Source: a virus. Taken from it: 64,000 nt of DNA. Under the pieces are notes generated by a model. It was not told the DNA's origin. It did no database searches and was given only the letters and a program-made list of their open reading frames with translations. A program made the translations under genes and the position numbers. The stretch spans positions 1 to 64,000 of IMG/VR virus record IMGVR_UViG_3300032084_001540; one strand, given 5' to 3'. Of this stretch, positions 1,652 through 61,042 are shown piece by piece. The number at the start of each line of letters is the position of its first letter. Position 1 is the first letter of the stretch.

Positions 1652-2854
1652 CTAGCGGCGGACGACACTATCTAACATCTCACCTTTCTCGAATACAGTA
1701 TCAACAACCGTCTGCAATGCTCTCGCAGTAGCAACACCAACGGTGGAATATACAGGCACAACGCATAGCCCATAGGTCTTAGATTCTGCACCAAGACGCA
1801 ACACACGACCGATAGTCTGTGTCATCTCGATGATATTCATGTTACGCATGAAGATGACAGTTTCCAACTCACTGACGTTGATACCCTCAGAGAGAATAGA
1901 ACGATGCAGAACAACAAACTTCTTCTCAGGATCGCGACCCCAAGCATTCAACGTATTGAAGAACTCTTCACGATTGACTTTCTTACCATCGACAACTGCA
2001 CCTGTCTTGGATGTGATATAGAGGTAAGAATAACCACGCTTGATCAACTGCATGGCAAAATCAGTTGCTGCAAACAAGTTCATAAGTTGCTTGCTAGTCT
2101 TCACACAAACCAGAATCTTCTTGGTATCAGTCTCTTCAATGGTGTCAATCACGTTCTCAGCATCAGTCTCACACGAAATCATCCGTGAGTTAGTGTGCAT
2201 TGCAAACTTTTGTGCATGAATACGAGGAGGGATAATGTATCCACCATCAACTAACTCAGGAGCAGAAATACGGGCAATGATTTGACCATAAACTGCCTCA
2301 TCATTCATGCCTGGTTTATTGATAGTGATTGAAGTCTTGCGCGTAGCTGTGAAGAAGTAGCAACGATCTGCCTCGTAAGAGAAGAACTCAGTGGGAGGGA
2401 AGAAGTTACGCTTAACGCTGTTATGTGCTTCGTCAAAGTATATTGTATTGACCTCAATATCTGCCTCCATGATACGGTGGAGAGAATTGTATGTGGTGAA
2501 GATGATGACATTCTCACCCATACTACGGGCGCAACCTGCATACAGATGAATCTTTTCTGCCTTGGTGGTGCTAGTGTAGTGAGTTTCACCACTGTGAACG
2601 TGCATCACATGCAGATATGGGTCACTGTTGTTAGGATCAATGACCTCCATAAACTCGCTGCAAAGTTGTTCAGCAAGGAGAATACGTGGAGCAACAACAA
2701 CTGTGGTGGTGCCGTTGTTGATACTATCCAGACGATTCTTGGTGTCTGTGATCATGCACATTGTCTTACCACCGCCAGTGGGGACAATTACCTGACCTTT
2801 GTCATAAGCAACCATACGATCGACAATCCGTTGCTGATGGGGACGCAGTTGCAT
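1652..2854 (-). CDS. Superfamily II DEAH-box helicase
   Basis: The likely start is ATG 2852-2854 (MQLRPHQQRIVDRM), giving 400 residues and fitting the Q-motif-like RPHQ opening of UvsW/Res-type helicases. Visible motifs: I PTGGGKT (25-31), II DEAH (141-144), III FTATR (168-172), and VI QTIGRVLR (346-353). These make it an ATP-dependent SF2 nucleic-acid translocase, probably for recombination, repair or fork remodelling. It is shorter than T4 UvsW, and I do not claim it is UvsW. A sigma-70-like promoter lies about 15-20 bases upstream of the chosen start, making it an early gene candidate. The ATG of the next gene (1586) lies 66 bases past its stop. Confidence 0.85.
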   Translation of the reverse strand: MQLRPHQQRIVDRMVAYDKGQVIVPTGGGKTMCMITDTKNRLDSINNGTTTVVVAPRILLAEQLCSEFMEVIDPNNSDPYLHVMHVHSGETHYTSTTKAEKIHLYAGCARSMGENVIIFTTYNSLHRIMEADIEVNTIYFDEAHNSVKRNFFPPTEFFSYEADRCYFFTATRKTSITINKPGMNDEAVYGQIIARISAPELVDGGYIIPPRIHAQKFAMHTNSRMISCETDAENVIDTIEETDTKKILVCVKTSKQLMNLFAATDFAMQLIKRGYSYLYITSKTGAVVDGKKVNREEFFNTLNAWGRDPEKKFVVLHRSILSEGINVSELETVIFMRNMNIIEMTQTIGRVLRLGAESKTYGLCVVPVYSTVGVATARALQTVVDTVFEKGEMLDSVVRR

Positions 2855-2875
2855 GAAGATCTCTGATATGAATAT

Positions 2876-2904
2876 AGTATGGCATGAAAAAAGCACTCTG
2901 TCAA
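2876..2904 (-). promoter_or_regulatory. Sigma-70 promoter, TTGACA-17-CATACT
   Basis: The -35 TTGACA is at 2899-2904 and the -10 CATACT at 2876-2881. The -35 hexamer is exactly the loop of the terminator stem at 2892-2911. It would drive the SF2 helicase (ATG at 2854). Confidence 0.75.
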
Positions 2905-2911
2905 GAGTGCT
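2886..2911 (-). terminator. Intrinsic terminator whose loop is the next -35 box
   Basis: On the minus strand AGCACTC-(TTGACA)-GAGTGCT is followed by a T-run. The 7-bp stem and T-tract make a good rho-independent terminator for the genes ending at 2940; the loop is a perfect -35 hexamer. Confidence 0.75.
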
Positions 2912-2939
2912 AGACCAGTTCATCAACTGTCACATGGTA

Positions 2940-58944: not shown

Positions 58945-59153
58945 TCAATTTCCTCTGTTTTTTTATTAAATCCAAATGGACCTGCTGATTTTTCTTCCAA
59001 TGCTAGTTTTAGTGCGACACTGCCGACTGCTTCCATACATTTAAGAATGTCTTCTGTCTTAGCACCTTCACCAAGTTCTTTAGCGATGTACCAATACTTA
59101 GGCCAAAATGTTTGACCTGCCAATTCATAATCTTCAAGTGTTAATAGTTTCAT
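58941..59153 (-). CDS. Small hypothetical protein, 70 aa
   Basis: ATG 59151-59153 (MKLLTLEDYELAGQTFWPKY) overlaps the ThyX stop as ATGA. The protein is helical with WYIAKELGEGAKTEDIL and an end FGFNKKTEEIE. Unrecognised. Tight coupling with ThyX and the dehydratase suggests one operon. Confidence 0.65.
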   Translation of the reverse strand: MKLLTLEDYELAGQTFWPKYWYIAKELGEGAKTEDILKCMEAVGSVALKLALEEKSAGPFGFNKKTEEIE

Positions 59154-59788
59154 TTCCAATCAAGTGCTTCGGATACTGTAGGGAATTTATTACAGAAGAT
59201 CTTTTTACATCCTTCTGCAATGTCCATGTGTTCTTTCTGTGTTCCATTAGCAGAACGCAGATTTATATAGTGAATCCATGAGCGACATGATCCGCTCATA
59301 TAGATTTTTGTTCCCGTCGCAAGGGGCATCACCATTCTAGCACACTCTTTTGCAACTTCTTCAGACAAAAGTTCTTCATAGAGTATCTGTGCTTGACGGA
59401 AATGTTCTTGAATCTTAAACAAAAGTCTAGATGTAATCAACGGATCCAAGTCATCAATAGAATTTTGTCGATTCTTTGTGTCTTGACGACGAAGTTCTGG
59501 AAGTGGAATATGATTCTCCAGCAGAGTTGTTGCAGCATACCGTTGAGAAAACTCTTGATATGTAAAACTACGGTGCCTCAGAATTTGAGCTGCGATTGCT
59601 CTAGAAGTTTCAATCTCAAGGGTCATAAAGGACTGTTCAAATACAGACCAATGATTGTGCTTGATACAATACTTCAGAAGTCCAGCATAATTTGGATTCT
59701 CTTGATTGTTTGGGTTTGAGACACGGGCAACGTATGCCATCAAGTTCTCAGCGTCAGGAGTGACCGATACGAATTTAACTGTTTGCAT
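59150..59788 (-). CDS. thyX: Flavin-dependent thymidylate synthase ThyX
   Basis: The 212-residue protein carries the signature RHRSFTYQEFSQRY at 71-84, which is the RHRxxSxxxxSxR motif of ThyX with Gln-Glu-Phe in the middle. The end SANGTQKEHMDIAEGCK contains the family's R...Q/E-H elements. It methylates dUMP using FAD and methylene-THF to supply dTMP for phage replication. Common in cyanomyoviruses. Confidence 0.95.
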   Translation of the reverse strand: MQTVKFVSVTPDAENLMAYVARVSNPNNQENPNYAGLLKYCIKHNHWSVFEQSFMTLEIETSRAIAAQILRHRSFTYQEFSQRYAATTLLENHIPLPELRRQDTKNRQNSIDDLDPLITSRLLFKIQEHFRQAQILYEELLSEEVAKECARMVMPLATGTKIYMSGSCRSWIHYINLRSANGTQKEHMDIAEGCKKIFCNKFPTVSEALDWK

Positions 59789-59993
59789 AATATGCCAAAT
59801 AATACTTTACTATTCCAGAGGTGGTCAGATTACCCTGAGACACCCAGTCATGAACGCATTCATAAATGCTTTGACATGTATATCTAGGTCTGCCGTCAGT
59901 AAGTTCCGACCCAAACTTCTTCAATAGAATGTTCAAACCTTGCGCTCTCGTGTCCATACGTTCTTGTGAGTAGCGCCAATCATTATCTATCAT
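59775..59993 (-). CDS. Small hypothetical protein, 72 aa
   Basis: The start MIDNDWRYSQERMDTRAQGL (ATG 59991-59993) overlaps the upstream stop by 11 bases and is preceded by AGAG; an alternative ATG is at 60014. The protein contains DGRPRYTCQSIYECVHDWVS and an aromatic end (GIVKYYLAYYANS). Its stop lies inside the ThyX start. No family recognised. Confidence 0.65.
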   Translation of the reverse strand: MIDNDWRYSQERMDTRAQGLNILLKKFGSELTDGRPRYTCQSIYECVHDWVSQGNLTTSGIVKYYLAYYANS

Positions 59994-60204
59994 ATGGCAT
60001 TTCTCTATAGTCATCAAGTTCAGGAGCAAGTTCGGGATCAAATACTTCATCATAGTCTGAGATATGAGGAACAATATCCTCATACTGAGGTCTATATGGC
60101 TCTTCATCAGAGTCAATCTCAGACTTGAGGCACTCGACTAGAGACTCCAAGTTCCTTATAATCAGTTTGATTTTTTCTTTATCCATAAAGAAACAGTCTT
60201 TCAT
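59983..60204 (-). CDS. Acidic hypothetical protein, 73 aa
   Basis: ATG 60202-60204 gives MKDCFFMDKEKIKLIIRNLE followed by a strongly acidic Asp/Glu/Pro/Tyr-rich tail. An upstream GTG in frame (60222) is inside the predicted RNA start region of the promoter, so it was rejected. The first codons lie in a 23-bp exact repeat shared with a gene at 60.9 kb. Function unknown. Confidence 0.6.
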   Translation of the reverse strand: MKDCFFMDKEKIKLIIRNLESLVECLKSEIDSDEEPYRPQYEDIVPHISDYDEVFDPELAPELDDYREMPYDR

Positions 60205-60222
60205 GACCTCAATCAATTCCAC
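60200..60222 (-). repeat. 23-bp exact repeat, copy 1
   Basis: Exact copy of 60921-60943. Here it covers the leader and first codon of the 73-residue gene. Confidence 0.85.
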
Positions 60223-60231
60223 TACACATCA

Positions 60232-60260
60232 ATTATACACAAAAAAGGAGAGATCGTCAA
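60232..60260 (-). promoter_or_regulatory. Sigma-70 promoter, TTGACG-17-TATAAT
   Basis: The -35 at 60255-60260 lies in the loop of the terminator at 60245-60271; the perfect -10 is at 60232-60237. It drives the 73-residue gene and the genes through ThyX. Confidence 0.75.
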
Positions 60261-60271
60261 GACCTCTCCTT
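60241..60271 (-). terminator. Intrinsic terminator with a promoter in its loop
   Basis: An 8-bp stem AAGGAGAG/CTCTCCTT with an 11-nt loop is followed by a minus-strand T-run. It lies 7 bases past the stop at 60278. Its loop holds the -35 of the next promoter. Confidence 0.85.
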
Positions 60272-60277
60272 AAAGTA

Positions 60278-60466
60278 TTATGATTCAGTCAACAGTGACT
60301 TGCATGTCCTCTTACAAACTGTCTGACTGTCATCACACTCTATCAAACAGTTAAAATAATCATTAATTGCATCGCTTTGTGTATCAGATTTGTCTAGTGT
60401 CCTCTCAAGATTAAAAATTGACTGTCTCCAACCAGCTAGTTGATTAAAAGAAATTAGGTTGTGCAT
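60278..60466 (-). CDS. Small Cys-containing hypothetical protein, 62 aa
   Basis: ATG 60464-60466 (MHNLISFNQLAGWRQSIFNL) follows GGAGG at 4-nt spacing. The end CLIECDDSQTVCKRTCK has four Cys that could bind metal or form disulfides. A longer TTG-start version is less likely because of the ribosome site. It is followed by an intrinsic terminator. Unrecognised. Confidence 0.65.
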   Translation of the reverse strand: MHNLISFNQLAGWRQSIFNLERTLDKSDTQSDAINDYFNCLIECDDSQTVCKRTCKSLLTES

Positions 60467-60877: not shown

Positions 60878-61042
60878 TTAGTCGTTTGCGTCCCATGGGT
60901 AGCAATCAGGTGTTGATTCCTTCATGACCTCAATCAATTCCACCTTCATTTCGGGTGAAATATTCTCATTTGTTCTCATCCGAAACATAATTGCATCAGC
61001 TTGAGCACATGTGAGTGATGAATAGAATAGTAATTCTAACAT
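60878..61042 (-). CDS. Small hypothetical protein, 54 aa, ending DAND
   Basis: ATG 61040-61042 encodes MLELLFYSSLTCAQADAIMF and ends SPEMKVELIEVMKESTPDCY-PWDAND. I recall similar short cyanophage proteins. A GGAG lies 11 bases before the ATG inside a perfect palindrome. It is driven by a perfect consensus promoter and a structured leader of about 57 bases. Part of the coding region is the 23-bp repeat. Function unknown. Confidence 0.75.
   Translation of the reverse strand: MLELLFYSSLTCAQADAIMFRMRTNENISPEMKVELIEVMKESTPDCYPWDAND
60921..60943 (-). repeat. 23-bp exact repeat, copy 2
   Basis: Encodes VELIEVM within the 54-residue gene; identical to 60200-60222. Confidence 0.85.

Follow-up and report, generated by a model that had tools for sequence, protein, structure and literature searches.

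Interleaving of a putative intrinsic terminator and a predicted sigma70-type promoter at gene boundaries of marine cyanomyoviruses

Known composite elements and the locus at 60271-60232

Composite promoter-stem-loops (promoter-early stem-loops, PeSLs) have been described in T4-like phages, where they are credited with gene shuffling (PMC4503421, which cites Arbiol et al. 2010 and Comeau et al. 2014). A study of S-PM2 searched for PeSLs and found few (PMC4503421). Early and middle transcription of the marine T4-like cyanophages has been described as still unclear; the cyanomyoviruses have no alt, modA, modB, motA or asiA and are thought to transcribe their early genes with the unmodified host polymerase (PMC2984593). 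In genome studies, promoters and terminators were each predicted on their own (PMC3037559). There is also an in vitro precedent in which polymerase that is retained on the DNA after intrinsic termination restarts at a nearby promoter (PMC6978380). As composite promoter-terminators at T4-like operon boundaries are known in the form of PeSLs, the novelty here lies not in the concept but in the interleaved arrangement and how widely it occurs: the interleaving recurs at many genes in many related viruses of ocean cyanobacteria, with stems that differ and yet pair.

The window that we analysed is a stretch of 64,000 nucleotides and represents almost the entire 64,418-base virus record, whose nearest matches are marine cyanomyoviruses. 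The minus strand from 60271 to 60232 reads AAGGAGAGGTC-TTGAC-GATCTCTCCTT-TTTT-GTG-TATAAT, and Table 1 lists the features. The initial annotation had described a hairpin with TTGACG in its loop, a T-run and TATAAT at 17 bp. This arrangement was confirmed, except that the stem is slightly longer than claimed: its 11 bp, one of them a G-T pair, leave just TTGAC as the loop and include the final base of TTGACG, so that the 3' arm holds one base of the -35 hexamer and the loop the other five. The first two Ts of the T-tract are at the same time the last bases of the stem. By its GC-rich stem and the T-tract that follows, the hairpin is a putative intrinsic terminator, and the 61-nt stretch that contains the element folds at -19.2 kcal/mol (z = -4.9), a value equalled in none of the shuffles. 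The start site of the promoter would lie near 60225.

The element fills a gap of 91 nt, with the phrog_665 gene on one side and the phrog_878 and thyX genes on the other, and the hairpin begins 6 nt past the stop codon of the phrog_665 gene. The leader immediately downstream of it carries one copy (60201-60222) of a 22-bp exact direct repeat, TCATGACCTCAATCAATTCCAC. The other copy (60922-60943) is located within the coding part of the phrog_504 gene (60878-61042). The repeat may be a trace of past recombination; its core was searched for in the collected loci and was not found elsewhere.

Table 1. Positions of the two elements and their neighbouring genes in the window
Feature	Position	Strand	Evidence
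Upstream gene, 62 aa, phrog_665	60278..60466	minus	PHROGs E = 1e-23, residues 1-60
Terminator hairpin, 11-bp stem, loop TTGAC	60245..60271; loop 60260-60256	minus	sequence and fold
-35 hexamer TTGACG	60255..60260	minus	promoter scan, 11/12 match, spacer 17
T-tract, six T, inside promoter spacer	60241..60246	minus	sequence
-10 hexamer TATAAT	60232..60237	minus	promoter scan
First downstream gene, 67 aa, phrog_878, start 60186	59983..60186	minus	PHROGs E = 2e-11 from profile position 1
thyX (thymidylate synthase), downstream, same direction	59150..59788	minus	Pfam PF02511 E = 6e-46
First-case hairpin, 8-bp stem AGCACTCT/AGAGTGCT, loop TGAC, then TTTTTC	2892..2911	minus	scan
First-case promoter	2876..2904	minus	scan
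uvsW-like helicase ORF downstream of first case	1652..2926	minus	PHROGs DNA helicase E = 5e-62

The element resembles the PeSLs in that a stem-loop terminator is joined to an early sigma70-like promoter at a gene-block boundary of a T4-like phage. On sequence grounds it has both the sigma70-like early promoter (TTGACG-17-TATAAT, 11/12 consensus matches) and the adjoining stem-loop terminator (11-bp stem and T-tract, z = -4.9). The two differ in their geometry. We measured the distances directly in the sequences of RB49, which is a PeSL phage, and of T4, and found a tandem order in which roughly 12-32 nt separate the stem from the -35 that follows it, whereas in the window the loop contains the -35 and the spacer the T-tract; PeSL geometry here means that of the RB49 and T4 sequences. 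Repeated similar copies, as in PeSLs, were not encountered either, the copies in the window and in other cyanomyoviruses having unrelated stems. For KVP40 we found a repeat, AAAGGGTTGAC-N4-GTCAGCCCTTTC-TGTATTAT, whose hairpin includes TTGAC, with TATTAT as a -10-like hexamer at 18 bp. It differs from the window element as TTGAC is located in the 5' arm and not in the loop, the T-tract is weak (TTTC) and the copies hardly vary, as would be expected of a dispersed repeat. On one strand of KVP40 there are at least seven near-identical copies resembling AAAGGGTTGAC-N4-GTCAGCCCTTTC-NGTATTAT with TTGAC inside the hairpin; the PeSLs published for this phage may be these copies. The cyanomyovirus element would work like a PeSL, with a different geometry and no family of similar repeats.

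A second element of the same architecture is located at 2911-2892. Its promoter has the -35 TTGACA (2904-2899), a spacer of 17 and the -10 CATACT (2881-2876), which is preceded by TG (extended -10). The true start of the uvsW-like helicase ORF is probably 2854, past the promoter. The claim that one genome holds two such cases with unrelated stems was borne out, as both are real. A hairpin before 5.7 kb, which had been put forward as a third and weaker case, was ruled out: it has a 15-nt loop, lacks a T-tract and matches the -35 at only 3 of 6 positions.

Excess over chance in cyanomyovirus genomes

We defined the full architecture as a TTGAC over the loop, a stem of at least 6 pairs, a T-rich tail and a -10 at 16-18 bp; terminators and promoters were called by simple consensus rules. 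Twelve whole cyanomyovirus genomes were scanned (Syn9, Syn1, S-SM2, ACG-2014h, S-SKS1, ACG-2014j, SynMITS9220M01, S-BM3, S-CAM3, RB11-B, Sf-CH1b and P-SSM2). S-PM2 joined the set later and is included in the counts given for 13 genomes. The initial annotation had proposed such a scan, and we detected a clear excess: 22 full-architecture elements occurred in 2.43 Mb, 20 of them in the 12 genomes and 2 in the window, compared to a summed mean of ~0.6 for ten dinucleotide shuffles per sequence (~35-fold), though several elements are orthologous between genomes and the counts therefore overstate the number of independent events. The T4 genome had 0 full-architecture elements. At the strict criteria there were also 0 in Syn9, P-SSM2 and S9220M01, thus the TTGAC form is not shared by all of these genomes.

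Terminators and promoters are each under selection, which makes shuffles a weak null, and we therefore used three conditional nulls. TTGAC was present in 29 of 496 cyanomyovirus terminator loops and was the second commonest loop 5-mer after TTCGG (31); its reversal GTCAA, a partial mirror control, was present in 10 of the 496. A -10 at 16-18 bp followed 79% of the TTGAC loops compared to 16% of the other cyanomyovirus terminators. For the hairpin-blind test promoters were picked without regard to hairpins and then checked for a hairpin centred on TTGAC. Across the 13 genomes this was the case for 26 of 351 promoters (7.4%) compared to 2.1% of all TTGAC, which is a 3.5-fold difference (p = 2e-8). 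For RB49 the count was 1 of 67. In the arm-swap test the downstream stem arm was reassigned between promoters in 200 trials, and the number of hairpins in the genomes dropped from the observed 27 of 359 to 6.9 ± 2.4, with 14 as the highest value of all trials. The shuffle, hairpin-blind and arm-swap controls support what had been suggested from the two cases of the window, namely that compact phage transcription boundaries follow a design rule.

Two further lines were dropped. The 24 distinct stems all pair fully; as the elements were selected for pairing this is not evidence alone, and the hairpin-blind and arm-swap tests were used instead. In the thyX set a strong -35 in the loop traded off significantly against an extended -10 (TGn) (p = 3e-4); this was absent in the whole genomes (p = 0.56), so we do not claim it.

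The class is broader than the TTGAC form. A good -10 (at least 5 of 6 matches) was found 5-13 nt past the stem for 60 of the 204 terminators with a strong T-tract in the 13 cyanomyovirus genomes (29%); the corresponding counts were 1 of 15 for T4, 3 of 28 for RB49 and 3 of 37 for KVP40. AT-rich terminator tails resemble -10 boxes and could produce the arrangement by chance, since composition-shuffled tails yield a -10 in 11% of the cases. However, the observed 29%, the ~35-fold excess of the full architecture over the shuffle mean and both the hairpin-blind and the arm-swap tests contradict this explanation, which we find barely credible. A search of IMG/VR with the pattern TTGAC...TTTTT...TATAAT returned a hairpin in 24 of 126 among the matches listed, and the contigs of 22 of these 24 carried two or more cyanomyovirus-like ORFs. 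General bacterial use was rejected, as 5 of the 120 pattern matches listed for bacterial genomes had a hairpin, compared to the 24 of 126 listed viral ones.

Conservation upstream of thyX and uvsW

We collected 80 relatives of thyX from IMG/VR, 74 of them with at least 400 bp of upstream sequence. At 66 of these 74 loci a hairpin terminator followed by a -10 is located upstream of thyX, a few with a poor -10 or an odd distance being doubtful. The stems vary and still pair, while TTGAC, the T-tract, the spacing and the -10 are constant; examples are GAGGGTTC-TTGAC-GAACCCTC, AGCGTGTCT-TGAC-AGACACGCT and AAGAAGGGT-TGAC-ACCCTTCTT. The spacer measures 17 in 25 of the 28 distinct elements with a good -35. 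Promoters picked blind to hairpins carried one in 29 of 46 cases. Arm swapping reduced the count near thyX from 23 of 38 distinct promoters to 8.4 ± 1.8, a remainder to which the G-rich 5' arm shared by the stems of this set contributes by composition. Other loci have loops such as TTGAT, TTTAC or TTGCA or no -35 at all, hence the class extends beyond elements with the -35 in the loop. Upstream of the uvsW-like helicase the first-case hairpin recurs in the closest relatives with altered stems; more distant relatives have other forms, including ACCCCTTGACT-TTCG-GGTCAGGGGGT with TTGACT in the 5' arm.

The variation of the stems bears on two alternatives. The inverted repeat could be a protein-binding operator over the -35 instead of a terminator, given that the -35 lies at the centre of the dyad, a position from which a dimeric repressor could work. 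We consider this very improbable: the stems share their pairing and no common sequence, and a T-tract is present on just one of the two sides, as expected of a terminator but not of an operator. The second alternative is a PeSL-type mobile recombination cassette, kept because identical copies allow the swapping of neighbouring gene blocks. The two copies in the window and most cyanomyovirus copies have unrelated stems and thus offer little homology for recombination, and the mechanism was judged unlikely in S-PM2 (PMC4503421), so that a cassette seems unlikely to us despite several points in its favour. Gene shuffling in other T4-like phages has been attributed to composite promoter-stem-loops (PMC4503421), KVP40 holds its at least seven near-identical copies, the number of small genes between the element and thyX varies across relatives, and the 22-bp repeat is located just downstream of the window element.

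All elements that were checked are located between co-directional genes, often right past a stop codon. In S-CAM3 one follows regA and precedes a restriction enzyme gene, in ACG-2014h one follows an hsp20 gene, and S-SKS1 has one before psbA. Elements precede hli genes in Syn1, S-CAM3 and S-PM2, and a Syn1 element has psbD on one side and a gene pair that includes nrdC on the other. Several of these examples represent the same place in different genomes and are not all independent.

Proposed function and further signals in the window

We conclude that the element is very probably an intrinsic terminator interleaved with a sigma70-type promoter, which would end the upstream operon and start the next. 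The polymerase arriving from the upstream gene would transcribe the hairpin and halt in the T-tract. The same DNA would serve as the promoter of the next operon, its -35 being placed in the hairpin loop, and the 3' arm and T-tract together with a few further bases would form the 17 bp that separate the -35 from the -10. Unmodified host sigma70-type RNA polymerase would start this operon, and the plain sigma70-like boxes fit the use of such a polymerase in early transcription (PMC2984593). As new transcripts would begin downstream of the hairpin, it would be absent from the new RNA and would act only on transcripts that arrive from upstream. An operon boundary could in this way be packed into a gap of tens of bases, the element itself taking up roughly 40, and read-through transcription would be prevented from occluding the promoter of the next operon. 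The sequences show the anatomy, its excess over chance, its conservation at thyX and uvsW and the pairing kept as stems change; from these we infer termination at the hairpin, activity of the promoter and the advantage of the arrangement.

Packing could also be the whole explanation: both signals are needed at operon boundaries and small gaps would force them to overlap without any functional coupling. We give this somewhat less than an even chance. The elements do occupy gaps of tens of bases directly past stop codons, and many terminators have a nearby -10 without a -35 in the loop. However, the -35 is located in the loop and not merely near it, the spacing stays at 17 as the stems change, and RB49 and T4 are also compact yet keep the promoter after the terminator. 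By analogy with the in vitro system, the interleaved terminator and promoter might even be functionally coupled: the polymerase terminated in the T-tract would be released onto the next promoter and restart there, so that during early infection each operon hands polymerase on to its successor. Such coupling strikes us as quite improbable. The interleaved element would favour a restart at a nearby promoter as in that system, which differs in that it was studied in vitro with E. coli and has a separate terminator and promoter (PMC6978380). Whether ending one transcript affects starting the next could be tested with simple mutations of the interleaved terminator-promoter, and the recurrence of this element provides predicted operon boundaries and start sites in the neighbourhoods of thyX, uvsW, hli, psbA and nrdC.

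Other signals were noticed in the window. On the minus strand a second strong terminator, AGAGAGGTAGAAATACCTCTCT followed by T7, is located at 60652-60631, and many relatives have a similar terminator (AAGAGAGGTT/AACCTCTCTT) ~700 bp ahead of thyX. The plus strand has a 10-bp stem at 155-178 (TGTGCCACTT/AGGTGGCACA) with the loop TGGC and without a clean T-tract. A perfect 12/12 promoter, TTGACA-17-TATAAT, occurs without a hairpin at 62289-62261 on the minus strand. Ahead of the phrog_504 gene we observed a perfect TTGACA-18-TATAAT promoter (61135-61106, minus strand). Similar promoters with TTGACTAAATA or TTGACTATATA and an end resembling GGGTNTATAAT are present in S-SKS1, S-SM2, SynMITS9220M01 and Syn9, and several of them are located near the same genes.
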